64,000 nucleotides of DNA, taken from Acidimicrobiaceae bacterium. GTDB lineage: Bacteria > Actinomycetota > Acidimicrobiia > Acidimicrobiales > RAAP-2. Below are positions 22,260 through 40,450 of this stretch, piece by piece (the stretch's first letter is position 1; every line of letters begins with the position of its first letter). The stretch is from assembly GCA_003164095.1 (NCBI GenBank), contig PLRX01000066.1, positions 7,394-71,393 on the forward strand, in the 5' to 3' direction. Made by a program: the position numbers and the translations under genes. The notes under the pieces were generated by a model. The model saw only the letters and a program-made list of their open reading frames with translations. It ran no database searches and was not told where the DNA came from.

Positions 22260-23741
22260 TTACCCGGGAGGATCCGAACTCGTCGGGGGCTCCACGGCTG
22301 CGTGATCATCCGTCCCTGCCGGCACCATACGTGACGGTCCGGGCTCGATCGGAGCCGTCGAATCCGTGGTCAGCGTGCCACCGCCGGCAGCGAGCACTGC
22401 CGAGGCGGCTGCGGCCTGCAGCTGCGCGGCGTGCAGGGCCAGGGCCCTCTGGTACGCCTCGAACTGGCGACGGTTCTTCCGACGGACCTCCCAGGGGTAG
22501 CGCGGTGGGGTCCCGGAAGGCGCACGGGGGATGCACAGCAGGACCAGCAGGTACGGCAGCATCAGGACGCGCTCGCGGGTGATGAGGCCCAGGTTCCCCA
22601 GTGCGGCGAACGCATAGATGAACATCAGCGTGTAGGCGGTACAGAGCATGACGTACGGACGGCAGAACGCCGTGCGGGGCAGGATCCTCAGCCGGCGGAG
22701 GGAGGCGAGGATCAGGACGCCGATGATGAGGTTCTCGAGGGACGCGAGGCGGGCGCCCGTACTGTGCGCGTTCAGGGGGGTCGGGTCGAACAGCACCGTG
22801 TACACGTCGGACGGGAACGCCAGCGGGCTCGACGAATAGCCCGCTCCACTGCTCCCGAATCCGGCTCCCGTGCCGTTGTTGTTCTGGTTGGTCTGAGACA
22901 AGGACAGCGTGCCGCCGGACGAATGCAGGTAGTGCAGGGTGAGGTACAGCGAGGCCGACAGGAGCACGAGCATGAAGGCGAGGCCGGCCACCCGTCGGAT
23001 GCCGCTGTACGTCCGGCCCCGGTCGGCCGGTCGGATCATCAGGGCGACGGCAAAGCCGGCCAACAGGAGCAGGAGCTCGTTGGGTCTGATGAGGGCGCCC
23101 ATGGCGGCGCCCAGCGTGAGATACGTGAAGCCCCGGGGCCTCCTGGCCAGCACCAGCGCCGCACCGTAGGTGGCGACGCCGAGGGAGACCATCATGATCG
23201 CCTCTTTGCTGACGTCCGCCGTCCAGAAGATCATCGACGGAAGGAAGAAGACCAGGATCGCGTAGCGGCGGTGACTGTCGCGGGCCTCGGGGAAGGTCAC
23301 GGTGAACGCGCGGTAGAAGAAGATCGTCCCGAGCCACGACATCCAGGCGAAGGCCATGAATGCCGCGACCTGGTTGACCCCGGTCAACGCCATGACTCCC
23401 CCGGCGACCACACTGACCGAGCCGTTGTTCACGATCTTTCCGACGTGGGCCGAGGAGAGGGAGAAGTCCAAGTGCCGGAATGCCGGCGCCAGCTGCGAGC
23501 CCTGGTTGTCGTAGCGCAGCCAGTCGGCGATGCCCCCGTAGAAGTGGTCGACGACGTAGATCTGCGCCGGGGCGGCCAGGAGGTGGATGACGAGGCTCGC
23601 CATCAGGATCCGGCTCAGCCATGGTGCGGCCTGCGAGGCGGTGGTGCGGGCGATGATCGGCCGGCTCACCAGAAGCAGCACGGCGGCAACCACGACCACG
23701 CCGATCGGGTTGGACGGGATGTGGACGAGGGCAATTAGCAC
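22260..23741 (-). CDS. Multi-spanning membrane protein, candidate polysaccharide polymerase
   Basis: A 493-residue protein dominated by hydrophobic helices (about 9-11 by eye). A large loop rich in Gly, Ser and Asn lies before the last helices (around NQNNNGTGAGFGSSGAG), and a cytoplasmic Ala- and Pro-rich tail follows. It has no Wzx-like or GT39 motif I can name. It is 19 nt downstream of the Wzz/BY-kinase-like gene, the position expected of a Wzy-type polymerase, so polymerase is inferred from context. The GTG at 23741 follows GGAAGGGG; the upstream extension to 23825 lies over the neighbour. Confidence 0.72.
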   Translation of the reverse strand: MLIALVHIPSNPIGVVVVAAVLLLVSRPIIARTTASQAAPWLSRILMASLVIHLLAAPAQIYVVDHFYGGIADWLRYDNQGSQLAPAFRHLDFSLSSAHVGKIVNNGSVSVVAGGVMALTGVNQVAAFMAFAWMSWLGTIFFYRAFTVTFPEARDSHRRYAILVFFLPSMIFWTADVSKEAIMMVSLGVATYGAALVLARRPRGFTYLTLGAAMGALIRPNELLLLLAGFAVALMIRPADRGRTYSGIRRVAGLAFMLVLLSASLYLTLHYLHSSGGTLSLSQTNQNNNGTGAGFGSSGAGYSSSPLAFPSDVYTVLFDPTPLNAHSTGARLASLENLIIGVLILASLRRLRILPRTAFCRPYVMLCTAYTLMFIYAFAALGNLGLITRERVLMLPYLLVLLCIPRAPSGTPPRYPWEVRRKNRRQFEAYQRALALHAAQLQAAAASAVLAAGGGTLTTDSTAPIEPGPSRMVPAGTDDHAAVEPPTSSDPPG

Positions 23742-23760
23742 TCGATTGCCCCTTCCCGGG

Positions 23761-25509
23761 CTACTGGTCGCTCGGCTCGCCGCCGGGCGCGACCGTCGCC
23801 GCACCCGTGACGACGTCCGGAACATCCGACGGCGTCATCGGACGGACGGGCTCCGCGCCCGGCACATCCGACGGCACGGCTGCGGGGCCGACCACATCGT
23901 CCGGTACGTCCGACGCCGCTGGAGGGACTGCGCCCGACTCGGCGGTCAGGGCCGGCTCCTCCGGCGCAGCAGGGGGCTGGGCGAGCAGCCGCTGGCGCGG
24001 GTCGTTCTTGCCCAGCGGGTCGTTGGTGAAGACCACGCCCAGGACCGGTGCACCCAGGGTCCGGAGCACGGTCCCAACCTGGCGCGCCTCATCGGTCCTG
24101 GTCACGCCGCATTCCGCGACGACCAGCACGACGTCGACGGCATGGGCCAGGGCCTCGGCGTGGTGGTACGCGAGGATCGGCGGCGTCTCGACGATCACCA
24201 CGTCGGCCACCTGGCGCGCTGCGCCAAAGACGGCGCCGGCACGGGCCACGAGCTGACCGCCACTCCACACGAGGGAACGCATCGACAACGTCGCGACCCC
24301 CTCGATGCTCGTGGGCTGGAGTCGCGCCTCGATGTCCGCCGGCGTGATGTCCCCGCTGAAGTGACCGGCTGCCGGCGGGAGGCCCTCCCCGTCCAACTCC
24401 GAGGTCCCGATCACGATGACCCGCTGGTCCGCCTCGCCGTAGGCGGCCGCCAGGTTGACGACGACCAGGGGACGGGTCTCCTCATCGGAGGCGGAAACGA
24501 CCAGCACGACCTGTCGGGAACCCGTTTCCGGGACCGCGTAAGGCGTCGCAGTCATCGCAGGCGACAGGAGCCCGAATGCGCCGAGCGAAGCGGCATCGCC
24601 CGACCGCATCGACGCGCCTGCCGGTGGGAAGGCATCGAACAGGACGGCCATGCGCAACTTGCGGTACGCCTCCGCTGTGGGTGTGTGCAGGTTCGGGCCC
24701 ACGTCGATCCCGGAGGCGACCCCGGTTGCCGAGGCATCCTTTGCCGGGATGTCGGCGATCGCCGGGTAGCCGAAGTGGAACTCGGCGCGGCGCGCGTCGC
24801 GGATGGTCTTGTTCAGCACCTCAGTGAGGAGCACGATGAGCCCTGCCAACAGGGCGCCGAGGACGAACCCAGCGACGAGCCGTACCTTGTGGCTGCTGAA
24901 TGCGTTGACCTTCGGCACCGTCTTCGTGGCGTTCGACGCAGTGGCAGGTTCGACGACGGTGAAGCCGGATGGCCGGGGAGTCGTTCCGACCTTAGAGGCC
25001 TGGGATGCCTCGGAACTGGCGACCATGGCATTGACGGCCTTCTCGACCACAGTCGCGTAGGCGTTCGTGAGCGTCGCGGACAGATCGGCAGACGTACCGG
25101 CCGTCGACAGTGCCACCAGCGTCGATGCCGCCTTGGCGGACTTGCTCGCCGCCTGGGGTTTCGTCGTCGGCGTCGATTTGGTCACCACCGTGGCTGTCCC
25201 AAACGCCGACATGTGCGGGAGGAGCTCGGCAGCGTCGGCTGTCTGGCCGGCCGCCTGGATGGCAGACAACTTGACGTCGTAGATGCTGGCGACCAGGGCG
25301 ATCTGAAGTGACGTGGCGGCCGCGCTGCCTGCTCCCGCGGGCTGCACGATGCCGACAGTGGACACCGTCACCCAGCGGTACTTGCCCTCCGGCGACTTCG
25401 GCGTGCTCACCGGGATCAACACCAGGATGACGGCGCCGATCACGGCGAGGAGCACGACGAGCCGCCAGCTACGACGCAGCGCGCTTCCGAAATGAATTGG
25501 CTCGACCAT
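23761..25509 (-). CDS. Wzz/BY-kinase-like protein with degenerate ATPase motifs
   Basis: A 582-residue protein with the layout of a chain-length regulator fused to a bacterial tyrosine kinase. Helix 1 is at about 16-34, an extracytoplasmic region extends to about 208, helix 2 is at 209-232, and the cytoplasmic domain includes AEAYRKLRMAVLF. The ATPase is degraded. Where Walker A should be there is VVSASDEETRPLVVVNLA with no GK[ST]; the A' motif reads VIVIGTSELD; Walker B reads VVIVETPPIL. No C-terminal tyrosine cluster exists. The tail contains four SDVP repeats. It probably controls glycan length or export without kinase activity (inference). Confidence 0.82.
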   Translation of the reverse strand: MVEPIHFGSALRRSWRLVVLLAVIGAVILVLIPVSTPKSPEGKYRWVTVSTVGIVQPAGAGSAAATSLQIALVASIYDVKLSAIQAAGQTADAAELLPHMSAFGTATVVTKSTPTTKPQAASKSAKAASTLVALSTAGTSADLSATLTNAYATVVEKAVNAMVASSEASQASKVGTTPRPSGFTVVEPATASNATKTVPKVNAFSSHKVRLVAGFVLGALLAGLIVLLTEVLNKTIRDARRAEFHFGYPAIADIPAKDASATGVASGIDVGPNLHTPTAEAYRKLRMAVLFDAFPPAGASMRSGDAASLGAFGLLSPAMTATPYAVPETGSRQVVLVVSASDEETRPLVVVNLAAAYGEADQRVIVIGTSELDGEGLPPAAGHFSGDITPADIEARLQPTSIEGVATLSMRSLVWSGGQLVARAGAVFGAARQVADVVIVETPPILAYHHAEALAHAVDVVLVVAECGVTRTDEARQVGTVLRTLGAPVLGVVFTNDPLGKNDPRQRLLAQPPAAPEEPALTAESGAVPPAASDVPDDVVGPAAVPSDVPGAEPVRPMTPSDVPDVVTGAATVAPGGEPSDQ

Positions 25510-25859: not shown

Positions 25860-26042
25860 TTGAACTTGGGGCCATCTGGGGAGAGGCACCGTATTTGCAT
25901 CACCTGTACGGGGCGCATGTCGGAGTACTGCCGGGGGCGTCCTCGACGAGGGCAACGGATGGAGCGCTTCAGGGAGCGGTCCGTCCGGCGCCAGGTTGAG
26001 CAGCACTACGGGGGGACACGTGAATGGGGCAGCTTCACATGA
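25860..26042 (+). CDS. Possible 60-residue upstream ORF overlapping the FlaA1-like start
   Basis: The frame starts with TTG 8 nt after TAAGGT and ends at a TGA 23 nt inside the next gene. The product would be strongly basic with three cysteines and many Arg residues. An internal ATG lies at 25917. The leaderless geometry and the overlap suggest a coupled leader, but composition looks non-coding and I give it low weight. Confidence 0.2.
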   Translation: MNLGPSGERHRICITCTGRMSEYCRGRPRRGQRMERFRERSVRRQVEQHYGGTREWGSFT

Positions 26043-28074
26043 GTACGGTTCGATGAAGGCCGAGGCCGGGTCCACCGGGTCCCAGTCGGGCGCGGACATG
26101 AGGCAGGTGGCCGTACTCGCCAGCCGCGTGCGCGCCGCGCTGCTGTTCGTCCTCTTGGACGTGATGTGCGTCTTCGCGGGCTACGGGCTGGCCGAAGTCA
26201 CGTACTTTCGTGACAGGGCACCCGCCGGTTACCTCGAGCACTTCGCCTACTTCTTGCTGACCGCGGCGTTCGTCACCGTCGTGTGCAACCGGATCTTCGG
26301 GCTCTACGGACGCATGTGGCGCCATGCCGGTGCAGACGAGGCCCGCCAACTGATGCTCTCCAGCTCGCTGGTGCTGGCGGTGCTCGTCGCGCTGTGGCCG
26401 ATCGGCCACGCCCTCGGGATCAGCAGGTCGGTGCCACCGCTGGTCGTCGTGGTCGGGTGCATGTTCGCCTCGGCCGGCATGGGGGTCCTGCGCTTCCACT
26501 CACGTCTCTTCGCCTGGCAGCGTGGGTCCAAGCGGGTCGGGCTTCGGGTGGCGGTCATCGGCAGCCACGACGCGGGCGCCTCTGTCGTGCGCGAGATGCT
26601 CAGGAGCCCGGGCGCCGGCCTCGTCCCGGTCGCCGTGTTCGACGACGACACGAGATCCCACGGGCTGTCGATGCTCGGTGTCCCTGTGGTCGGTGCCATC
26701 GACGACATCCCCGAGGCAACGGACCGCTACACCATCCAGCAGATCCTGCTTGCCGTACCGTCGCCGCCGCCGGAGCTCGTGGAGCGTGCACTCCGTGCCT
26801 CGGAACTCGCCGGCGTGTCGATGAAGATCCTTCCCGGCGTCAAGGCGATGGTCGACGAGCCGGCGCATCTGGCTGCGCTTCGGCAGGCCCGTGAACCCCA
26901 GATCGAGGACCTCCTCGGCAGAACGCCGGTGCCGACGGACCTCAAGTCGGTACGCCGCACGATCGAGGGTCGCCGCGTGCTCGTGACCGGGGCCGGTGGG
27001 TCCATCGGCTCGGAAATCTGCCGCCAGGTCGCCGCCATGGACCCGGCGCTGCTGGTCCTGCTCGACCACGACGAGACCCATCTGCACGACACCGCTGCAA
27101 CGGTCCCCGGTACCTGCGTCCAGGCCCTGGTCGACATCAGCGACCGCGCCGGGGTGTTCGACATTTTCGAGCAGCACCGCCCAGAGGTCGTCTTCCACGC
27201 CGCGGCCCACAAGCATGTGCCCGTCCTCGAGCAGCATCCGCTCGAGGCAGCCCGGACGAACGTGCTCGGCACCCTCAACGTGGTGGAGGCCTCGGCGTCG
27301 GTCGGAGCCATGCGATTCGTGCAGATCTCCACCGACAAGGCGGTCCGCCCGTCGAGTGTGATGGGGGCGTCCAAGCGCCTGGCGGAACAGGCGGTGCTCG
27401 CCCGGGCGCCCAAGGACGGGGCCTACTGCACGGTCCGGTTCGGCAACGTGCTCGGGAGCCGAGGGAGCGTCATCCCCACGTTCGCCCGCCAGATCGCACA
27501 GGGCGGCCCGGTCACGGTCACCGACCCGCGGATGACCCGCTTCTTCATGAGCGTCGAAGAGGCGGTGCAGCTCGTGCTCCAGGCCTCCGTCCTGTCGGAC
27601 GGAGGTGAGATCTTCATGCTGGAGATGGGCGTCCCCGTGCGCATCATCGACCTGGCCGAGCGGATGATCCGACTGTCAGGCTTCCAGGTGGGCATCGACA
27701 TCCCGATCGAGATCTCCGGGGTACGACCCGGCGAGAAGCTCGCCGAGGTGCTGAACACCCCCGAGGAGGTCGTCCTCGACACCTCCCATCCCTACATCAA
27801 CCGTCTCACGCCGATCCGCGCTCCGGCCGAGCAGTTCGCCGCCGAGCTCGAGCAGCTCGACCGGGCGACCGCCTGTCGCAACAAGGACGAGGTGCGATTC
27901 CTCCTCTTCAATGCTGGCTCGCCGGTGCCCCGGGTCGAGCCGACCGAGGACGAGGTTGCCGACGACGGAGTGGTCCTCCCTTCACGCAACGGCAACGTGC
28001 CCGAGTACCTCGGCGGCACCGCGGACAAACTTGCGATCGCTGGATCCGAAGCCGACAAGCAGGTGTCCGCATGA
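26020..28074 (+). CDS. FlaA1/PglF/CapD-family nucleotide-sugar 4,6-dehydratase
   Basis: A 684-residue membrane-anchored SDR that turns a UDP-sugar (usually UDP-GlcNAc) into a 4-keto-6-deoxy sugar. Four N-terminal helices (about 25-165) are followed by a CoA-binding-like Rossmann domain and then the catalytic domain with VTGAGGSIGSEICRQ near 320-335. The catalytic site has the membrane-dehydratase variant SSVMGASK (near residue 446-453), with Met replacing the Tyr of classical SDRs. The GTG at 26020 follows a run of six G. Three genes for sugar modification follow in the same direction. Confidence 0.92.
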   Translation: MNGAASHEYGSMKAEAGSTGSQSGADMRQVAVLASRVRAALLFVLLDVMCVFAGYGLAEVTYFRDRAPAGYLEHFAYFLLTAAFVTVVCNRIFGLYGRMWRHAGADEARQLMLSSSLVLAVLVALWPIGHALGISRSVPPLVVVVGCMFASAGMGVLRFHSRLFAWQRGSKRVGLRVAVIGSHDAGASVVREMLRSPGAGLVPVAVFDDDTRSHGLSMLGVPVVGAIDDIPEATDRYTIQQILLAVPSPPPELVERALRASELAGVSMKILPGVKAMVDEPAHLAALRQAREPQIEDLLGRTPVPTDLKSVRRTIEGRRVLVTGAGGSIGSEICRQVAAMDPALLVLLDHDETHLHDTAATVPGTCVQALVDISDRAGVFDIFEQHRPEVVFHAAAHKHVPVLEQHPLEAARTNVLGTLNVVEASASVGAMRFVQISTDKAVRPSSVMGASKRLAEQAVLARAPKDGAYCTVRFGNVLGSRGSVIPTFARQIAQGGPVTVTDPRMTRFFMSVEEAVQLVLQASVLSDGGEIFMLEMGVPVRIIDLAERMIRLSGFQVGIDIPIEISGVRPGEKLAEVLNTPEEVVLDTSHPYINRLTPIRAPAEQFAAELEQLDRATACRNKDEVRFLLFNAGSPVPRVEPTEDEVADDGVVLPSRNGNVPEYLGGTADKLAIAGSEADKQVSA

Positions 28075-28096
28075 GGCCCGGGCTCGGCTACCAGCG

Positions 28097-29368
28097 GTGA
28101 CTCCGACCGGATCGCCGATCCAGAAACTCGTCGTCGTCGGCCAGGGTTATGTCGGGTTGCCCCTCGCCCTTCGCGCCGTCGAAGCCGGTTTCGACGTGGT
28201 GGGGTTCGACCTGGACCCCAACCGGGTCAAGCGGCTCGCCACCGGCGACTCGTACGTCGAGGACATCTCCACAGAGCGCTTGACCGCAGCCCTCGATTCA
28301 GGGCGCTACCTGCCGACCGACGATCCGGAGGAAATGGCGGAGTTCGACATCGCCGTTGTCGACGTCCCCACTCCGTTGAAGGAGGGCATCCCCAATCTCG
28401 CCTACGTGGAGGATGCCGCGACCACGCTTTCCGGCCACCTGCGCACCGGTGCGACTGTCGTCCTCGAGTCGACCAGTTACCCCGGGACGACCGAAGAGGT
28501 GCTGATCCCCCTGCTCGAGCAAGGATCCGGTCTGCGGGCCGGCCCCGACTTCCACGTCGGCTACAGCCCCGAGCGCATCGATCCCGGCAATCCGACGTGG
28601 ACCCTCGAGAACACGCCGAAAGTCGTCTCGGGTATCGACGAGGCGTCGCTCACATCGGTGGCATCGTTCTACGGCCGATTGGTCGAACGCACCGTGGCCG
28701 TGTCCGGAACGCGTGAGGCCGAGCTCACCAAGCTGCTCGAGAACACGTTCCGGCACGTCAACATCGCACTCGTGAACGAGTTGGCGATGTTCGCCTCCGA
28801 TCTGGGCATCGACGTCTGGGAATCGATCGATGCAGCATCGACGAAGCCGTTCGGGTACATGCGCTTCACCCCGGGGCCAGGGGTCGGCGGCCACTGCCTG
28901 CCGATCGATCCGAGCTACCTGTCGTGGAAGGTCAGAAGGAGCCTGGGGCAGCCGTTCCGCTTCGTCGAGCTGGCGAACGACGTGAACGAGCACATGCCCG
29001 ACTACGTCGTCCGCCGGCTGATGCTCGCCCTGAACGCGAAGGGCCGGTCGGTGCGGGGGACGCGGGTGCTCCTGCTCGGGCTGGCCTACAAGCGGAACAC
29101 CGGTGATGCCCGCGAAGCCCCGGGAACGATGATCGCACGGGCCCTCGTCGAGCTCGGGGCCGAGGTCCGTGTGGCCGACCCCCACCTGTCCGGCGACACG
29201 CTGTCTGTTCCGCTGGTGGATGCCGACGCCGACGAACTCGCCGCAGCCGACGCCGTGGTGATCATCACCGACCACGATGCCTTCGACTACGAGCTCGTAC
29301 GCACCCACGCCCGGTACGTCCTCGACACCCGTCACCGCGTGGACGGTCCCACCGTCGAGCACCTCTGA
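28097..29368 (+). CDS. UDP-sugar 6-dehydrogenase (WbpA/WecC-like)
   Basis: A 423-residue NAD-dependent dehydrogenase that oxidises C6 of a UDP-N-acetylhexosamine to the uronic acid. The NAD-binding loop is VVGQGYVGLPLA at the N-terminus, the middle domain carries KLLENTFRHVNIALVNE, and the catalytic cysteine is in PGVGGHCLPIDP (about residue 267); LLGLAYKRNTGDAREAP marks the C-terminal domain. The GQGYVGLPLA form points to the UDP-GlcNAc/ManNAc group rather than UDP-glucose. The GTG start is 22 nt after the dehydratase stop. The 4-epimerase follows after 5 nt. Confidence 0.93.
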   Translation: MTPTGSPIQKLVVVGQGYVGLPLALRAVEAGFDVVGFDLDPNRVKRLATGDSYVEDISTERLTAALDSGRYLPTDDPEEMAEFDIAVVDVPTPLKEGIPNLAYVEDAATTLSGHLRTGATVVLESTSYPGTTEEVLIPLLEQGSGLRAGPDFHVGYSPERIDPGNPTWTLENTPKVVSGIDEASLTSVASFYGRLVERTVAVSGTREAELTKLLENTFRHVNIALVNELAMFASDLGIDVWESIDAASTKPFGYMRFTPGPGVGGHCLPIDPSYLSWKVRRSLGQPFRFVELANDVNEHMPDYVVRRLMLALNAKGRSVRGTRVLLLGLAYKRNTGDAREAPGTMIARALVELGAEVRVADPHLSGDTLSVPLVDADADELAAADAVVIITDHDAFDYELVRTHARYVLDTRHRVDGPTVEHL

Positions 29369-29373
29369 CATCC

Positions 29374-30309
29374 ATGCGGGTGCTCGTGACCGGCGGAGCC
29401 GGCTTCATCGGTGCCAACTTGACCCGTGACCTCGTCGACGGCGGCGTCGCCGACGAGGTCGTCGTGCTCGACGATCTCTCGACCGGGAGCAAGGACAACC
29501 TGGCCGACCAGCCACACGTGGAGTTCGTCGAGGGATCGATCCTCGACAGCGGTCTGCTCGACCGACTGGTGCCGGACTGCCAGGCGATCGTGCACCTCGC
29601 CGCCCGGCCCTCGGTCCCCCGCTCGATCCTGGACCCGATGGCCAGCCACGATGCCAACGCCACCGGGACGATGCGTGTGCTGGAGGCCGCCAGACAGCAC
29701 GGCAAGCCCCAGGTGGTCGTGGCCTCGTCGTCATCGGTCTACGGCGCCAACCCCGCGCTCCCCAAGCGGGAGGACATGGTACCGATGCCGGTCAGTCCCT
29801 ATGCGGCCAGCAAGCTGGCCGCCGAGTCCTACGCCCTGGCTTACGGCGCCTCCTTCGACCTGCCCGTGCTGGCGTTCAGGTTCTTCAACGTCTTCGGCCC
29901 GCTGCAGGGCGCAGGCCACGCCTATGCCGCGGTCGTCCCGGCGTTCCTGGCGGCCGCGCTCGCTGGCGAGGCCCTCCCCATCCACGGCACCGGCGAGCAG
30001 ACGCGTGACTTCACCTACGTGGGCACGGTGACGGCGGTGCTGGCCGACACGGTGCGCCGTGGCGTGACCCATGCACGTCCCGTCAACCTCGCCTTCGGCA
30101 CCAGGGTGTCCCTGCTCGACCTGATCGACGTCATCGAAGGGCAGCTGGGTACATCAGTGGCCCGTGAGCACCTCGAGCCCAGGGTCGGCGACGTGCGCGA
30201 CTCACAGGCCGACCAGAGCACCCTGCACGAGCTCTTCCCCGACGTCCGGCCGGTGGCGCTCGAGGAAGGGATCGCCCGCACGATCGCCTGGTTCCAGGGG
30301 TCGGAGTGA
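29374..30309 (+). CDS. NAD-dependent nucleotide-sugar 4-epimerase (WbpP/GalE-like)
   Basis: A 311-residue extended SDR: VTGGAGFIGANL at 5-16, SSSSVYG around 118-124, and the catalytic pair Y143/K147 in SPYAASK. FFNVFGPLQ and GEQTRDFTYV are typical of UDP-GlcNAc(A) 4-epimerases. With the preceding 6-dehydrogenase it could convert UDP-GlcNAcA to UDP-GalNAcA, the pair used for GalNAc-uronic acid O-antigens (inference). A PAP2-like gene overlaps its stop by GTGA. Confidence 0.9.
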   Translation: MRVLVTGGAGFIGANLTRDLVDGGVADEVVVLDDLSTGSKDNLADQPHVEFVEGSILDSGLLDRLVPDCQAIVHLAARPSVPRSILDPMASHDANATGTMRVLEAARQHGKPQVVVASSSSVYGANPALPKREDMVPMPVSPYAASKLAAESYALAYGASFDLPVLAFRFFNVFGPLQGAGHAYAAVVPAFLAAALAGEALPIHGTGEQTRDFTYVGTVTAVLADTVRRGVTHARPVNLAFGTRVSLLDLIDVIEGQLGTSVAREHLEPRVGDVRDSQADQSTLHELFPDVRPVALEEGIARTIAWFQGSE

Positions 30310-30911
30310 CCCCGGGGCCGGAGTTGGCGAGGACCGCGCGGCGCGAAGTGGTCGCGGGTGTGGTACTGCTCGCATGGACCGCGGCCGCGGCCGTCATCAT
30401 CCGTCGGTCGCCAGGTCTCAACCCTTTGGACCGGTGGGGATTCGACGTCGTCGGTCCCCAGCTGCACAGTTCGCTGTACCTCGACGTCAGCCGCCTGGGC
30501 GGCGCGGCCGTACTCGTGGTCGGAGCACTTGCCGCCGGGGCCATCGCCCTCCGCCGCGACGTGGTGCGGGCCGGCGCCTGCGTCGTCAGCCCCTTCCTGG
30601 CCACTGCACTTGTCGAATGGGTGCTGAAGCCGGGGGTCGGACGCAGGTACGGCGGAGCGCTGACGTTCCCCTCCGGCAGCGTCGTGGTGATCGCGTCGGT
30701 CGCCACCGCGCTGTCCCTCGCCGTGACCGGACGACTGCGTTGGGTGGTCATCGCGATCGGGGCAGTCCTCGTGACACTGATGTGCGCGGCGGTCGTCGGA
30801 CTCCAGTGGCACTACCCCAGCGATGCGTTGGCCGGTGCGACGTTCGCCACCGGCATCGTGCTCCTCGTCGACGGCGGGGCCCAGGCGCTCTTCCGTCCCC
30901 ACGGGTCCTGA
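30306..30911 (+). CDS. PAP2-superfamily membrane phosphatase with altered active-site motifs
   Basis: A 201-residue protein with about five or six hydrophobic helices. The phosphatase motif C1 is LKPGVGRR (107-114). C2 should read PSGH but is PSGS here (122-125). C3 keeps LQWHYPSD (166-173) with the nucleophilic-position histidine and aspartate, but the upstream Ser-Arg pair is missing. It may be an undecaprenyl-diphosphate phosphatase-like protein serving the lipid carrier, or an inactive relative. Its GTG overlaps the epimerase stop (GTGA). Confidence 0.78.
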   Translation: MTPGPELARTARREVVAGVVLLAWTAAAAVIIRRSPGLNPLDRWGFDVVGPQLHSSLYLDVSRLGGAAVLVVGALAAGAIALRRDVVRAGACVVSPFLATALVEWVLKPGVGRRYGGALTFPSGSVVVIASVATALSLAVTGRLRWVVIAIGAVLVTLMCAAVVGLQWHYPSDALAGATFATGIVLLVDGGAQALFRPHGS

Positions 30912-30958: not shown

Positions 30959-31075
30959 GTGCTGAGCGGAGCCGTCAGGGGCACCGGCATCGGTGGGGAC
31001 GCGAAGGTGGGGGGCACCATGTCGTGGGCCGAGGGGATGTCCGGGCCGGAGAGTGGGTCCGAGTTGTCATGGTGA
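30959..31075 (+). CDS. Putative 38-residue leader ORF of the LuxR-type regulator
   Basis: The frame opens with GTG 8 nt after TAAGGT and ends with SELSW and a TGA (31073-31075) that overlaps the regulator's GTG (31072) by GTGA. It is Gly- and Ser-rich. The geometry suggests a leaderless first cistron coupling translation to the regulator. Confidence 0.4.
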   Translation: MLSGAVRGTGIGGDAKVGGTMSWAEGMSGPESGSELSW

Positions 31076-32304
31076 CCATCGCCTGCATTGACATCGATCC
31101 GGTCCGAGGTGTCGGACGCTGTGGACCCCGGGCCGGCGACGGCGTGTGGACGACGCTCCTGCACCACGTGGAGAAGGCTGTCCGACCCGACGACCGGATC
31201 TGTCCGATCGGGCACCGGATCTTCGTCGAGTTCAGTGCCCGGGCCCATCACCTGCCTTCGAGCGTCCTCGGTGACCGACTCGCGGTCGCCGTGGGCCGGG
31301 GCGTGCCGCTCGACGGGTCCGAGCGGCCGCTCCGGATCTCGGTGGCGCTGGCATCGCCCACAGCGGCCGGCAACCCCGGCGCCACACGTGTGGTGATCGC
31401 AGCCGCCCGGGCGGGCAGCGACCGGCTCGGTCGGCTGGTCGGGGATCCGGAGGGCCGCCCCGACGCGTGCGTGACGGTCGACCGGCTGGTGTCCCCTGCC
31501 GACGGCGGTGGACCGGCCGGAGGGTCCTCCCTCCATCTCCGGGTCGCACACCTACGCGCCACGAGCCGGAGGAACCAGGGCCGGCAGCGGTCACACGTCC
31601 AGGCGGACGTGTCGACGTCGGTCGTCCCGCGCCTGGCGGTCCACGTCGTCGACTGCACCGGATGGCCCCACGGCGACGTCGGATCGACGGCGGCGGCCGT
31701 CGCAGCAGAGGTGTCGGCGCTCGGCTGCGAACCGGTCGTGCCGGCAGCCATGGATACCTCGCCGGTTGCCCTCGAGGATGTGTCCGCAGCGGACGCTGTC
31801 GTCCTCGTGGTCGACGGCAGTGCGATCCGTCGGTCCGCCGACTGGGCCTCGGGCCCCTGGGGAACACTGACCCGGATGACCGACTCCTACCGATCGGCAG
31901 GCGTGCCGGTCATCGTCCACGGCGATGGTGCCGGGGCCGGCGCCATCGCCAGCGGTGTCGCCCACGGCGCATTTCCGCTCGTCCGCCTCCACCAATTGCC
32001 GGAGACGTTGCGCCTGGTGGCCAAGGGTCACCTCGAGGACGCTCGCCTGAGGACCGTGCAGGGGTTCCCGGATCGGTTCCAGGCCCTCATCACCCTCACG
32101 GAGAGCGAACGTCGGGTGCTCTTCTTCCTCACGGAGGGATGGTCCGCCCAGGACATCGCCGAGCAACGGGTGATCTCGATCGCCACCGCCCGCTCGCACA
32201 TCCGTTCCGTCCTCCGCAAACTGGGGGTGCGGTCGCAGCTCGCCGCCGTCGCCATCGCGAACCGCCGGGACGTCGACGAGCTCGCGGTGGGCGAGGCACG
32301 CTGA
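31072..32304 (+). CDS. LuxR-type regulator with a GGDEF-like, motif-less N-terminus
   Basis: A 410-residue protein. The N-terminus reads ACIDIDPVRGVG, then helical segments ending PDDRICPIGHRIFVEF, which matches the spacing of a GGDEF domain (DxD near the start, GG[DE]EF where GHRIF sits) but without catalytic residues. Residues about 180-325 look like a receiver-like alpha/beta domain (LAVHVVDCTGW, AVVLVVDGSA, GVPVIVHGDG) without clear phospho-Asp context. The C-terminus is a LuxR helix-turn-helix (TESERRVLFFLTEGWSAQDI, TARSHIRSVLRKLGV). The GTG at 31072 overlaps the leader-ORF stop; an ATG at 31069 is in frame. Confidence 0.78.
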   Translation: MTIACIDIDPVRGVGRCGPRAGDGVWTTLLHHVEKAVRPDDRICPIGHRIFVEFSARAHHLPSSVLGDRLAVAVGRGVPLDGSERPLRISVALASPTAAGNPGATRVVIAAARAGSDRLGRLVGDPEGRPDACVTVDRLVSPADGGGPAGGSSLHLRVAHLRATSRRNQGRQRSHVQADVSTSVVPRLAVHVVDCTGWPHGDVGSTAAAVAAEVSALGCEPVVPAAMDTSPVALEDVSAADAVVLVVDGSAIRRSADWASGPWGTLTRMTDSYRSAGVPVIVHGDGAGAGAIASGVAHGAFPLVRLHQLPETLRLVAKGHLEDARLRTVQGFPDRFQALITLTESERRVLFFLTEGWSAQDIAEQRVISIATARSHIRSVLRKLGVRSQLAAVAIANRRDVDELAVGEAR

Positions 32305-33105
32305 GTGGACCCTGGTCACGCCGCACCGGGACCGGCGGTCGGTCGGGTCGTGCTCCTTACCGGGCCGGGCGACACCACGGACATCGTGGCCAACTACCTG
32401 GCGGTCCGGGTCCCGGATCTCCAGGTGATCCAGGAGGACCCGCCCTCGCGCGTGGGGCTGGCCCGGCGGCGCGCAGCGCGCATCGGCTGGCCGACGGTCG
32501 TCGGCCAGATCGCGTTCGTCACCTGTGCGCTCCCGTTGTTGCGCTGGCGCGGCCGGGAGCGGATCGCCCGCATCTCAGCCGATGCCGGGATGGATGCCAC
32601 GCCCTATGTCGGCAAGCACCATGTCCCGTCCGTGAACGACCACTCGACGATGGAGCTCCTCGAGCGCATGAGGCCGTCCGTCGTCGTCGTGAACGGCACC
32701 CGGATCATCTCGTCGACCGTGTTGGAAGGCATCGACTGCCCCGTCATCAACACCCACGCCGGCTACACCCCGCGCTACCGCGGCGTGCACGGTGGCTACT
32801 GGGCGCTGGCAGAAGGCAATCCCCAACTCGTCGGCACGACCGTGCACCTCGTGGACCCCGGCATCGACACCGGAGGGATCCTCGCACGGACCACCTTCAC
32901 ACCCTCGAGCGATGACTCCATCGCCACCTATCCGTACCTCCACCTGGCAGCCGGACTGCCGCTGGTGGCGTCATCGGTGGAACTGGTGCTGTCCGGTGGG
33001 ACGCTTCGACCGCTGGAGGACGACCCGACCATCGAGTCACGGCTCTACCTCCATCCGACACTCTGGTCCTACCTCCGCAGTCGGATCTCCAGGGGCGTCC
33101 GGTGA
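32305..33105 (+). CDS. Formyltransferase-family protein (sugar N-formyltransferase candidate)
   Basis: A 266-residue protein with the 10-formyl-THF formyltransferase core: INTHAGYTPRYRGVHGGYWA (N149, H151) and VHLVDPGIDTGGIL (D188). It lacks the C-terminal tRNA-binding domain of methionyl-tRNA formyltransferase, so a sugar amine is the more likely acceptor. The nearby aminotransferase could supply a 4-amino sugar. Its GTG starts directly after the regulator's stop, so the two genes share a transcript. Confidence 0.85.
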   Translation: MDPGHAAPGPAVGRVVLLTGPGDTTDIVANYLAVRVPDLQVIQEDPPSRVGLARRRAARIGWPTVVGQIAFVTCALPLLRWRGRERIARISADAGMDATPYVGKHHVPSVNDHSTMELLERMRPSVVVVNGTRIISSTVLEGIDCPVINTHAGYTPRYRGVHGGYWALAEGNPQLVGTTVHLVDPGIDTGGILARTTFTPSSDDSIATYPYLHLAAGLPLVASSVELVLSGGTLRPLEDDPTIESRLYLHPTLWSYLRSRISRGVR

Positions 33106-35384: not shown

Positions 35385-35444
35385 ATGGACACAAGCGACC
35401 GATCGAACGTGGCCTGCGGCGCACCCGAAGCGGTGCGTCGATGA
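35385..35444 (+). CDS. Putative 19-residue upstream ORF overlapping the GT-like start
   Basis: ATG at 35385 after GGAAAGTCAGAG; the frame begins MDTSDRSNVA and its TGA overlaps the ATG at 35441 (ATGA). It repeats the overlap geometry of the other leader ORFs of this locus. Confidence 0.3.
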   Translation: MDTSDRSNVACGAPEAVRR

Positions 35445-36253
35445 TCCACGTCGCTACGGTGCACCACAAGTCGCCCAAGTGGATCGACATCCAGCTCGCC
35501 TACCTCGAGCGGAACATCAGCGAGCCCTTCCGCGTCGTGGCGAACCTCGAGGACGTCGACCCGTCCTACGAGAAGCGATTCGATCGTGTGGTGCCCGGAC
35601 TGGGACGCCACGCGGGGAAGCTGAACCTTCTCGCCGCCGAGATCGCCGCAGAGGGCGACCCGGACGACCTGATGATGTTCCTCGATGGGGACGCGTTTCC
35701 GATCGCCGACCCCATGCCCGTGGTGCGCAACGCACTGAGCACCGTCCCCCTGGTCGCCGTCCGGCGGGACGAGAACGGCCACGACCCGCAACCCCATCCG
35801 TGCTTCTGTGTGATGAGGATCCGCGATTGGGAGCGGCTCCACGGCGACTGGTCGATGGGGTATGCATGGGAGAACGACTGGGCCGGTCAGATCACCGATG
35901 TCGGCGCCAACCTGCTCGCCACCCTGCGGCGTGAGCAGATCCCCTGGGAACCCCTGGTACGCACCAACCGGGTCGACCTCCACCCGCTCTGGTTCGCCGT
36001 CTACGGGGACATCGTCTACCACCACGGTGCCGGCTTCCGCGACCCGTTGGCCGCTCGTCGGGCCGTGGTCGAGCAGCCGAGCAGGTGGAAGCGCGGCGAG
36101 ACGCTCCCCGGGGTGGGGCTGGCGATCCGCAAGCTCGCCAGCGCGCGCATCAAGTTCTGGACGGACCGCGAGGTCCAGGCCGGGCGGCGCCTCGGTGACG
36201 AGATCTTCACCCAGATCGAGAACGACCCGGAGTTCTACCGTCAGTTCCTGTAG
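35441..36253 (+). CDS. GT-A-like protein with DxD motif, glycosyltransferase candidate
   Basis: A 270-residue protein. IHVATVHHKSPKWIDIQL opens the chain; MMFLDGDAFPIAD (about 83-95) is a clear DxD-type nucleotide-sugar motif, and the region from GYAWENDWAG to VYHHGAGFRDP resembles the acceptor side of GT-A enzymes. I do not recognise a CAZy family. It sits between sulfotransferases ST3 and ST4 and may share a transcript with ST4 (26-nt gap). Confidence 0.75.
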   Translation: MIHVATVHHKSPKWIDIQLAYLERNISEPFRVVANLEDVDPSYEKRFDRVVPGLGRHAGKLNLLAAEIAAEGDPDDLMMFLDGDAFPIADPMPVVRNALSTVPLVAVRRDENGHDPQPHPCFCVMRIRDWERLHGDWSMGYAWENDWAGQITDVGANLLATLRREQIPWEPLVRTNRVDLHPLWFAVYGDIVYHHGAGFRDPLAARRAVVEQPSRWKRGETLPGVGLAIRKLASARIKFWTDREVQAGRRLGDEIFTQIENDPEFYRQFL

Positions 36254-37086: not shown

Positions 37087-38061
37087 TCAGGGCACGTAGT
37101 CCTCGGCCGACCACCGGGTGAGTGGGAAGCCGGCCAGGACCCGCTGGAGGGTCTCGACCTGCTCCGTCGTCAGGCGGGTCTTCCACGCCTCGGGAGCGTC
37201 CGAGGCGACCCGACTGACGGCGAACCCACTACCCGGCCGGTCGTTGGCGACCAGGAACTCCTCGACCTCCACGGCCCACGGGAGCCCGAGGTCCTCGAAC
37301 AGACGTCGGAACTGCAGCAGGGGGTCGAGGCACAACTCCTCGTGGACACGGACCGTCCACGAGGGATGTCGGACCGCTGCCTCCTCCAACGCGAGGGTGA
37401 GGAGGCCGATCATCCAGACCATCCGTCCGACCGGGTCGTCACCCCGGGGGGGAATCGACGACGAGGTGGAGTCGATCCGTCGTCGGATCGCCGGATGGTC
37501 CTCCACGCGGGCGAACTGGTCGGTGAGGTCCAGGTCGATCCAGCTCGCGAGCACGTTCGCCGGATGGCGCAGGAGGACGAGCACGTCGAAGTCGTAGGTG
37601 CGCGTCAGCCATTCCAGGGCGAGCGGGGCGTGGACCGACTTCACCAGGAGGCGCCCGGGAGGCCCGGTGGCAACCCGCCCGAGCGGTGGATGTGCACCGA
37701 GCATCCCGGCCACACGCATGCGGGGGGACCACCGCCCCTGGTAGTACCGCGCCCTGGCCGCGTGCGGGACGCTGTTCAGCAGCCACCCGGCGGCGACCAG
37801 CCGCCGCGTGGACGGGGCGCCCCTCGTCGCCCAGTCCCACAGGTGCCGGTAGCGCTCGTCCTCGACGTCGTCCATCAGTACCGGATACCGGCCGAGGCGA
37901 CGCTTGGCCCAGATGGCTGACACCGTCTGGCCCTCGTTGTCCGGCTCGTCCACCAACGACACCGACGGGTCCGCGGTCAAGGCCCGCATGGTCCATGTGG
38001 ATCCACAGCGGGGGAGCCCGGCCAGCAGGAGGGGCGGCCTCGTGTCCGGCGCCGGGGTCAA
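37087..38061 (-). CDS. PAPS-dependent sulfotransferase (ST5, paralogue of ST1)
   Basis: A 324-residue protein from a TTG at 38061. AGLPRCGSTWTMRAL is the 5' loop and LLRHPANVLASWIDLD the 3' motif. It aligns throughout with ST1 at 7997 (SAIWAKRRLGRYPVL, KSVHAPLALEWL, HEELCLDPLLQFR). There is no ATG in this N-terminal region; the TTG overlaps the stop of a 21-codon upstream ORF (TTGA) and gives an N-terminus of the same length as in ST1. An in-frame extension to 38490 is antisense to the deacetylase. Confidence 0.85.
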   Translation of the reverse strand: MTPAPDTRPPLLLAGLPRCGSTWTMRALTADPSVSLVDEPDNEGQTVSAIWAKRRLGRYPVLMDDVEDERYRHLWDWATRGAPSTRRLVAAGWLLNSVPHAARARYYQGRWSPRMRVAGMLGAHPPLGRVATGPPGRLLVKSVHAPLALEWLTRTYDFDVLVLLRHPANVLASWIDLDLTDQFARVEDHPAIRRRIDSTSSSIPPRGDDPVGRMVWMIGLLTLALEEAAVRHPSWTVRVHEELCLDPLLQFRRLFEDLGLPWAVEVEEFLVANDRPGSGFAVSRVASDAPEAWKTRLTTEQVETLQRVLAGFPLTRWSAEDYVP

Positions 38062-38123
38062 CGGACAGCCATTGCTGCACGTGTCGTTGCGGGGGCTCCC
38101 CAACCTCGTCGCACGGGGCTCAT
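38058..38123 (-). CDS. Putative 21-residue upstream ORF of ST5
   Basis: The minus-strand ATG at 38123 opens MSPVRRGWGA and the frame ends with a TGA that overlaps the ST5 TTG (TTGA). It has the same layout as the leader at ST1 but no sequence similarity. Confidence 0.3.
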   Translation of the reverse strand: MSPVRRGWGAPATTRAAMAVR

Positions 38124-38213
38124 CGCGCAACAATGGCACAGATCGCCCGGCTGCCCGGTGGGTCCGGGCGCCCGATCCGACCGTCTCCTGCGGGCGGCGG
38201 GCGGTCGCTCGTC

Positions 38214-38219
38214 TACGAT
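38214..38219 (+). promoter_or_regulatory. -10 element (TACGAT) for the polysaccharide deacetylase
   Basis: TACGAT, 7 nt before the GTG at 38227. Confidence 0.55.
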
Positions 38220-38226
38220 CGTCGAG

Positions 38227-39264
38227 GTGAGGGGTGTCACACGTGGAGGGGGTCGTCCGGGCCGCGATGCACCATCGCGGCCCGGGGCGCTCGTCATCTC
38301 CCTGGACTTCGAACTGCACTGGGGTATGCGCGACCACACCGAGCTGGGGAACGCCGCCTACGACGAGCTCGCGGCCTCCCGCCGGACGGTGGTCGACCTG
38401 GTGACGCGGTTCGAGCAACGCGGGATCCGGGCGACGTGGGCGACCGTGGGAATGTTGTTCGCCTCGACCAAGGCGGAGCTCGAGGGTCATCTCCCCAGCT
38501 CACGGCCCGCCTATCGGCGGGCCGAACTCGACCCCTACGCAGAGTCCGTAGGCGTGGACGAGCTCGCCGATCCCGAGCACCTGGCCGGATCACTGGTGCG
38601 ACTGCTCGCCTCGACCGAGGGCCAGGAGGTGGGCTCGCACACGTTCTCCCACTACTACTGCCTGGAGGAGGGACAGGCCGAGTCGGACCTGCGCGCCGAC
38701 CTCGCAGCTGCGCAGTCCATCGCCGGCAGCCACGGGCTCACGCTCACCAGCCTCGTGCTCCCCCGCAACCAGTGGAACCCCCGCTACGCGTCCGCCGTGA
38801 TCGACAGCGGGTTCACGTGCTTCCGCGGCCCGCAGCCGTCACGGGGCCACCGGGCCCGGGCGGACGACGAGCAGCGTCCGATCGACCGCGTGACGCGCCT
38901 GGTGGACACCTACGCCGGGGTCACGCCGCCACCGACGTTCGCCTGGGACGGCCTCCGCCGGCCCGACGGCCTCCATGACATCCCGGCCAGTGCCTTCCTC
39001 CGGCCGTATGCGCCGGGTCGCCGACATCTCGAGCCACTCCGCACACGTCGACTGGCGAGCGGACTGCGGGACGCGGCACGCCGTGGCCGGGTGTTCCACC
39101 TCTGGTGGCATCCCCACAACTTCACCCGCTACCCGTCCGAGAGCTTCGCCTGCCTCGACCGGGTGCTCGACGGGTACGACGACCTCGCCCGCACCGAGGG
39201 CATGCGCTCGATGTCGATGCGCGATGCCGTCGCCTTCCTCGGTGACGGCGGATCCTCCGACTGA
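38227..39264 (+). CDS. NodB-type polysaccharide deacetylase
   Basis: A 345-residue carbohydrate-esterase-4-like protein. ISLDFELHWG supplies the catalytic/metal Asp (D27) and EVGSHTFSHYY the metal-binding H138 and H142; FAWDGLRRPDG and WWHPHNFTRYP follow. It has no signal peptide, so it may act in the cytoplasm. It would remove N-acetyl groups from glycan or lipid-linked sugar. The GTG start follows TACGAT by 7 nt. Confidence 0.88.
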   Translation: MRGVTRGGGRPGRDAPSRPGALVISLDFELHWGMRDHTELGNAAYDELAASRRTVVDLVTRFEQRGIRATWATVGMLFASTKAELEGHLPSSRPAYRRAELDPYAESVGVDELADPEHLAGSLVRLLASTEGQEVGSHTFSHYYCLEEGQAESDLRADLAAAQSIAGSHGLTLTSLVLPRNQWNPRYASAVIDSGFTCFRGPQPSRGHRARADDEQRPIDRVTRLVDTYAGVTPPPTFAWDGLRRPDGLHDIPASAFLRPYAPGRRHLEPLRTRRLASGLRDAARRGRVFHLWWHPHNFTRYPSESFACLDRVLDGYDDLARTEGMRSMSMRDAVAFLGDGGSSD

Positions 39265-39289
39265 CCCGTTCGCGATCGCCCGGATGTCC

Positions 39290-40369
39290 TCAGGTGTCCG
39301 ATCCGGTCCGCCCGCGCAGCACGCCCGCCCGGTCGAGCTCGTCCCGCAGCGCCACGAGCCGCGCCGTCCCCACCTCGGCATCGGGCTCGAGGTAGTTCCC
39401 CTCCGCCCATTCGTTCCAGGACTTGACGACCAGGACCTGCTCGTCGTCGGGGTGACCGGCCAGAAATTCCAGTGCCCGGCGCACGTGGGCTGCGAACAGC
39501 TCCGGGGTGGATCCGGTGGCGACCACGCCGAGCCGGCCGGAGCGCGGGGTGTTGTCCCAGTTCGGGTAGATCCCGGGGAAGAGCAGGCCGCCGAACTCCG
39601 GGGCCGGGTCGGCCAGCACCTCGAGGTAGGGATAGCGACGTGGCCCGCCGGCCAAGCCCCGGGCCACGAGCCGTTCCCGGACCTTGGCCCCGGTGGTGCG
39701 GGCGAACGGGAAGCGGAACACCACCCCGGCGTCGAAGCCGTCGGCCACCTGGTCGCGGTAGCCCGACTCGCCCAGCGACGCCACCAGGTAGAGCCCGCCC
39801 AGTCCGGCATCGGACGCCATCTTCTGCCAGGTCTCCACGAACCTGGCCGGGTCCGGCAGGTCCCCCGGTTGGAAGACGAAGAGAACCGGCCGGCCGGCCA
39901 GCCGCACGTAGCGGGGGTCCCGGAACGCCGGCAGGAGCGACTCGAAGTGGGCCCGGTCGTCCTCGGGACCCGGGTAGGTCTGTTCGATGAGGATCCGCTC
40001 GGGAGCGCCGTGCCAGACACCGGACCACGTCTGGTTGGCCCAGGCGAGGCAGAAGGGGAAGTCCGGGCGTCCCGAGGCCAGCACCTCGTCGAACGGGCGC
40101 TCCAGCAGCCGGTGGCCGGCGAACCAGTAGTGCCAGTAGCAGAAGCCGGTGACCCCGTGGGCACGGGCCAGGTCGGCCTGGGCCTCACGGGTCTCCGGCA
40201 CCCGCAGGTCGGTGAAGCCGAGCTCGGCGGGCAGGTGGGGCTGGACGTGCCCGTGGAACAGGGGTCGGGCCCGGGTCACGTTGGTCCACTCGGTGAAGCC
40301 GGTGCCCCACCAGCGGTCGTTCTCGGGGATCGGATGGTACTGGGGCAGGTAGAGCGCGAGTACCTCCAT
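39290..40369 (-). CDS. WbsX-like glycan-locus protein (GH99-like fold)
   Basis: A 359-residue protein with EVLALYLPQYHPIPENDRWW at the N-terminus, TEWTNVTRARPLF, FCYWHYWFAGHRLLERP, and VKSWNEWAEGNYLEP, the hallmark of the WbsX family found in O-antigen and EPS clusters. The N-terminal Glu/Asp-rich fold resembles GH99 endomannosidases, but enzymatic activity is unknown. The ATG at 40369 is supported by TAGCAT 8 nt upstream; longer in-frame extensions have no support. Confidence 0.88.
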   Translation of the reverse strand: MEVLALYLPQYHPIPENDRWWGTGFTEWTNVTRARPLFHGHVQPHLPAELGFTDLRVPETREAQADLARAHGVTGFCYWHYWFAGHRLLERPFDEVLASGRPDFPFCLAWANQTWSGVWHGAPERILIEQTYPGPEDDRAHFESLLPAFRDPRYVRLAGRPVLFVFQPGDLPDPARFVETWQKMASDAGLGGLYLVASLGESGYRDQVADGFDAGVVFRFPFARTTGAKVRERLVARGLAGGPRRYPYLEVLADPAPEFGGLLFPGIYPNWDNTPRSGRLGVVATGSTPELFAAHVRRALEFLAGHPDDEQVLVVKSWNEWAEGNYLEPDAEVGTARLVALRDELDRAGVLRGRTGSDT

Positions 40370-40377
40370 GGGACGCC

Positions 40378-40383
40378 ATGCTA
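40378..40383 (-). promoter_or_regulatory. -10 element (TAGCAT) for the WbsX-like gene
   Basis: Minus-strand TAGCAT, 8 nt before the ATG at 40369. Confidence 0.5.
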
Positions 40384-40450
40384 CCGAGGGACGTCTGACG
40401 GACCGGAGCGCTCCGTCCCGCCGCAGCCGCGGAAACCCCAGGTCACCCGG

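Follow-up and report, generated by a model that had tools for sequence, protein, structure and literature searches.

A putative LuxR-type regulator with a degenerate GGDEF domain and retained c-di-GMP I-site residues in a glycan locus of an Acidimicrobiaceae bacterium

Degenerate GGDEF receptors and c-di-GMP-responsive regulators

Receptors with a degenerate GGDEF domain and transcription factors responsive to c-di-GMP are both already known, each separately. PopA of Caulobacter and SgmT of Myxococcus have lost the active-site (A-site) motif and kept the RxxD motif, as has the regulator described here, which is likewise predicted to bind c-di-GMP and not to make it. SgmT (GGGVF and RHPD) was reported to bind c-di-GMP via its I-site despite a degenerate A-site (PMC3509222). 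PopA, a response regulator, acts through localisation, SgmT is a histidine kinase, and in neither is the GGDEF domain joined to a DNA-binding domain, whereas much more of the GGDEF core is missing from the present regulator, which carries a LuxR helix-turn-helix (HTH). The degenerate domain of PelD from Pseudomonas likewise has an RxxD motif along with a third arginine, and in PelD the substitutions R367A, D370A and R402A abolished c-di-GMP binding (PMC2170427). PelD is similarly tied to exopolysaccharide, but as a part of the polysaccharide synthesis machinery that acts after translation and not as a transcription factor.

Among transcription factors, VpsT of Vibrio cholerae resembles the regulator in its LuxR-type HTH, which it combines with a receiver domain (a receiver-like one in the regulator), and through VpsT a polysaccharide locus responds to c-di-GMP. 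However, VpsT lacks a GGDEF domain and uses its receiver domain to bind c-di-GMP; the W-[FLM]-[TS]-R motif of VpsT does not occur in the regulator protein. PdeL of Escherichia coli also couples a LuxR-like HTH with a domain of c-di-GMP turnover, in its case an EAL phosphodiesterase domain that is active. Of the transcription factors with a GGDEF-like fold, MabR and other PucR-type proteins (GGDEF-like domain PF17853 with HTH_30) come closest; they are likewise actinobacterial and lack a GGDEF motif, but they have a different HTH, to which the GGDEF-like domain is adjacent. In MabR neither the A-site nor the I-site is present (HGTWL and RHGR, respectively; PMC11617747). Among the sixteen members of the family described here, PF17853 had no match and HTH_30 had weak matches in two. 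A transcription factor sensing c-di-GMP via a GGDEF I-site was not found in the open-licence literature, which does not prove that none exists, and the transcription-factor rows in the effector table of a 2025 review name none of this kind (PMC12564702).

The regulator gene and its glycan locus

The regulator gene was identified on the forward strand at 31069..32304 of the window (the whole 64,000-nucleotide stretch of DNA analysed), encoding 411 amino acids from ATG 31069 to a TGA stop ending at 32304; residue numbers are counted from this ATG. An alternative start at GTG 31072 gives 410 amino acids. ATG 31069 was judged the better start, and some relatives (L035, L045) also have an in-frame methionine at or near this position. 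A longer ORF starting at 30823 would overlap the upstream PAP2 gene, which ends at 30911. The LuxR regulator of the original prediction is indeed encoded on this strand, with an HTH (32092..32259, +; amino acids 342-397) over the Pfam GerE cut-off (PF00196; E 1.3e-9, 37.9 bits against a cut-off of 23.5). GerE was matched in all sixteen family members, and in the window protein the HTH was the sole domain recognised by Pfam and NCBIfam. Ahead of it lie a degenerate GGDEF domain (31069..31491, +; amino acids 1-141), assigned by hhalign, PDB profile search, AlphaFold2, Foldseek and VIA, and a receiver-like (REC-like) domain (31627..32031, +; amino acids 187-321).

A short ORF, MSWAEGMSGPESGSELSW, was identified directly ahead of the regulator (31019..31075, +), consisting of 18 codons from ATG 31019 with its TGA at 31073-31075, so that its end overlaps the regulator ATG (ATGGTGA). 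A Shine-Dalgarno-like AAGGTGG lies upstream of it. At the place of this ORF, relatives are extended in frame at the N-terminus by about 17-24 amino acids, and the distance between the two ATGs is 50 nt in the window versus 51 nt in L045. When the ORF was examined as a possible frame-shifted remnant of this N-terminal extension, the similarity of the two peptides was not significant (p 0.34 for L045). Translational coupling is one possible reading of the ORF, an indel in the N-terminal extension the other. The leader ORF noted earlier thus exists, but as an argument that the regulator controls the locus it adds nothing.

The regulator lies, as had been proposed, inside a glycan locus, the neighbours being assigned by Pfam and synteny. 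The first core gene encodes a capD-like nucleotide-sugar dehydratase of polysaccharide biosynthesis (Polysacc_synt_2; 25996..28074, +). This is followed by a UDP-glucose/GDP-mannose dehydrogenase (28073..29368, +), an NAD-dependent epimerase with 68-74% identity in relatives (Pfam; 29374..30309, +) and, directly upstream of the regulator, a PAP2-like phosphatase (30306..30911, +; assigned by synteny and a Pfam match of E 7e-6 that falls slightly short of the cut-off). A formyltransferase (Formyl_trans_N; 32305..33105, +) abuts the regulator stop codon, and glycosyltransferases and sulfotransferases lie downstream of it. In the variable part of the locus, three proteins (35441-36253, 37686-38975 and 38975-40450, all +) had no Pfam match at E 0.001, and homologues of them occur in the loci of some relatives. 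On the other side of the core, two long adjacent proteins encoded on the reverse strand (22260-23825 and 23761-25509), also with no Pfam match, are conserved beside the core in most relatives, with 50-62% and 34-43% identity, respectively.

Besides the window's own genome, eight genomes of the genus carry full-length relatives of the regulator, as do two from a second genus in the family, the public-record names being Acidimicrobiaceae, Acidimicrobiales or Actinomycetes MAGs. More distant relatives belong to a second family within the order, and a wider search over a sampled draw of the order and class found the regulator family in these two families alone. In nine relatives the gene order is the same and the regulator occupies the same position (in L042 no phosphatase was detected). 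Within the genus, the locus is present in each of the nine regulator-bearing genomes, counting that of the window, while four of the five genomes without the regulator also lack the locus epimerase, counts which are not phylogenetically independent. The fifth genome, G003, keeps the locus without a regulator (L142, between about 5750 and 8867). L038, L040, L044, L047 and L048 carry relatives outside the glycan locus, and distant relatives have unrelated genes nearby. Given these relatives and G003, the link between regulator and locus is not obligatory. Searching the region ahead of the capD-like gene revealed no clear conserved operator. A AATTTTTGATGATGCC-like stretch upstream of this gene (25996) is common to the window, L035, L039 and L045, and is a possible promoter or operator.

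Descent of the N-terminal domain and its retained I-site

The strings ACIDID and PDDRICPIGHRIF, which had been read as following GGDEF spacing, occur in the window protein exactly as quoted, and the relation to GGDEF held in profile-profile comparison. The profile of the family N-terminal domains scored 45.9 (hhalign) when compared with a profile built from this genome's own GGDEF domains, while 200 column-shuffled GGDEF profiles gave a mean of 11.3 and a maximum of 19.2. The alignment is in register, with VRPDDRICPIG-HRIF over VRSQDTVARVGGDEF, so the GGDEF spacing is beyond chance. The score was 38.8 when relatives keeping the GG were removed and 30.05 for the window sequence alone, and the family profile scored 8.5 against a receiver profile. 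A profile search across all PDB sequences matched six chains (best E 0.001), all of them GGDEF proteins, or annotated relatives, with the GGDEF match in register; 4wxw and 4wxo among these are the SadC GGDEF domain. The window protein gave no match at the cut-off of Pfam GGDEF (PF00990), which matched weakly in two of the sixteen family members (best E 0.033).

An AlphaFold2 model of residues 1-168, built from the family alignment alone with no templates, has a pLDDT of 80.6, a pTM of 0.78 and the GGDEF order of strands and helices (beta-alpha-beta-beta-alpha-beta-alpha-beta). The top Foldseek matches of this model are GGDEF domains, the first being the c-di-GMP-bound structure 4zmm (E 7.6e-6), and VIA gave Z 14.2 to 3icl and Z 13.0 to PleD (2wb4; 133 residues, 2.7 A). 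Neither of the two outcomes named as speaking against the original prediction, an absent HMM-HMM relation to GGDEF and a differing fold, was seen. Judged by the profile comparison, the PDB profile search and this model, the N-terminal domain is a descendant of GGDEF.

The GG[DE]EF signature is absent, as had been noted: the hairpin R-x-G-G-[DE]-E-F of the active site is replaced by P-I-G-H-R-I-F (31204..31224, +), reading G-HRIF in the window protein. Near relatives have S-T-Q-S-V and similar strings, and the distant group from another family of the order has LGG[ASTP]R[LVF], in which the GG is kept and the D and E are lost. This GGxR-type motif (LGGxRxAV) represents an intermediate state and supports the GGDEF origin. 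The Asp and Glu of GG[DE]EF are missing from all relatives. Also missing from the family are the N-terminal LTGLPNR segment, the guanine-binding (GTP-binding) loop, the Mg-binding motif and the GTP-binding elements FKxxND and GHxxGD, with the Gly of GHxxGD kept in 20% of members and its Asp in 13%. From this loss of the active site, the domain is predicted to be no longer able to make c-di-GMP.

Residues R39, D42 and R70 are invariant in all fifteen aligned N-terminal domains, the mean column identity of which is 30%. The complete set of invariant residues is R39, D42, F55, L67 and R70, so every invariant charged residue occupies an I-site position. L148, a relative read after the pattern had been noted, also keeps all three. 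They correspond to R359, D362 and R390 of PleD, which form its I-site with R390 as the third residue (PMC7288161). The RxxD motif, R39-P-D-D42 (31183..31194, +), lies 9 and 6 residues before G48, matching the spacing ahead of the motif given for PleD (PMC2170427), and R70 (31276..31278, +) is by alignment the equivalent of R390. No counterpart was identified in the regulator for the fourth I-site residue, an Arg of the partner subunit (R313 in PleD). Of eighteen GGDEF columns conserved to at least 90% in the genome's own GGDEF domains, R39, D42 and R70 are the only ones kept in every family member; the chance of picking exactly these three from eighteen is 1/816. The positions that drifted include structural ones, namely the Ser/Gly of the fourth strand, the Leu pairs and the Ala/Asp of the last helix. 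RxxD and the third Arg are conserved in the active GGDEF domains of this genome too, so part of their retention could be due to inheritance or structural need. The point calling for explanation is that R39, D42 and R70 survived while everything else drifted.

Proposed function and competing explanations

We propose, with moderate confidence, that the regulator is a LuxR-type transcription factor responding to c-di-GMP via the I-site of a pseudo-GGDEF domain, with the glycan locus as its likeliest target. A dimer of c-di-GMP would bind the I-site, the allosteric product-binding site, through R39-x-x-D42 and R70, and ligand binding may, by way of the receiver-like domain, cross-link the subunits or shift their orientation as a mechanism of dimerisation. 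Such a change of the subunits would alter DNA binding by the LuxR HTH dimer, and the glycan locus containing the gene would be the most likely target, whether for activation or for repression. The earlier suggestion that the regulator may control this locus agrees with its conserved position there. The ligand is presumably made in the cell, as about 16 intact GGDEF proteins are encoded in the genome.

Both a sensor of a nucleotide such as c-di-GMP and a mere scaffold had been thought plausible at the outset. Were the pseudo-GGDEF domain solely a dimerisation scaffold that binds no nucleotide, R39, D42 and R70 would be structural leftovers forming salt bridges. MabR offers a precedent, as an actinobacterial transcription factor with a GGDEF fold and neither an A-site nor an I-site (RHGR; PMC11617747), and the same three residues are conserved in the genome's active GGDEF domains. 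However, MabR has lost the Asp of RxxD, which argues that the GGDEF fold does not need it, and in the present family the other conserved GGDEF positions, structural ones included, have all drifted while the charged triad never changes. The scaffold is thus considered a credible but unlikely explanation, and the c-di-GMP sensor is favoured over it because the I-site triad alone, among the conserved GGDEF positions, is retained in every case. That the domain binds another nucleotide instead (GTP, (p)ppGpp or another cyclic dinucleotide) appears improbable: binding of GTP or hydrolysis of ATP is possible for degenerate GGDEF domains (PMC7288161), and PDB entries 9g85 and 9g86 are titled as complexes of PleD with c-di-GMP and (p)ppGpp, but the GTP-binding elements are missing from the family and the triad that binds c-di-GMP is intact.

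A further alternative concerns the central domain. In the full model, residues 187-399 match NarL/FixJ-type regulators (VIA; EvgA with Z 12.5 over 186 residues, VraR with 12.0), and hhalign to a NarL-type REC profile gave 21.2 against a null maximum of 17.8, weak but in register; this profile was built from nine sequences, and an earlier single-sequence profile gave nothing. Pfam Response_reg had no match among the sixteen family members. The position of the phospho-acceptor Asp is occupied by Val/Leu and the conserved Lys is missing, so phosphorylation is unlikely, and a role in a phospho-relay was rejected for want of the phospho-acceptor. For the central domain alone, B12-binding domains rank about as high in VIA as receivers, including an Acidimicrobiaceae photocobilin (8j2y, Z 13.4) and MetH (1k7y, Z 13.3). 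A B12-binding identity was disfavoured, since inspection showed no DxHxxG and the domains are arranged as in a response regulator.

The receiver-like domain might nevertheless be the real sensor, of a ligand or partner independently of phosphorylation or of a cobalamin-type ligand, with the GGDEF part secondary. Its conserved W259, W264 and GAGAGA segment, the high B12-binding matches and the relative L046 that does without the GGDEF part are in keeping with this. The absent cobalamin motif, and a domain order and full-length match to EvgA and VraR that favour a receiver origin, weigh against it, and it would leave the frozen I-site unexplained; it is judged the least probable of these alternatives. 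The relative at L046:9815-10714, with receiver-like and HTH parts and no GGDEF-like domain, represents a natural domain-loss comparison.

For the family as a whole, we regard the chances as even that these proteins sense c-di-GMP by means of a diguanylate cyclase remnant in which only the product-inhibition site has survived, a feedback site having become a promoter switch wired into the synthesis of surface glycans in Acidimicrobiales. If the c-di-GMP reading is true, the regulator would represent a direct route from the feedback site of an enzyme to a gene switch, and would provide an output of c-di-GMP for the Acidimicrobiales, a mostly uncultured group. The sequence rule of RxxD with a third Arg and no GGDEF would then find more such regulators that are missed by Pfam.
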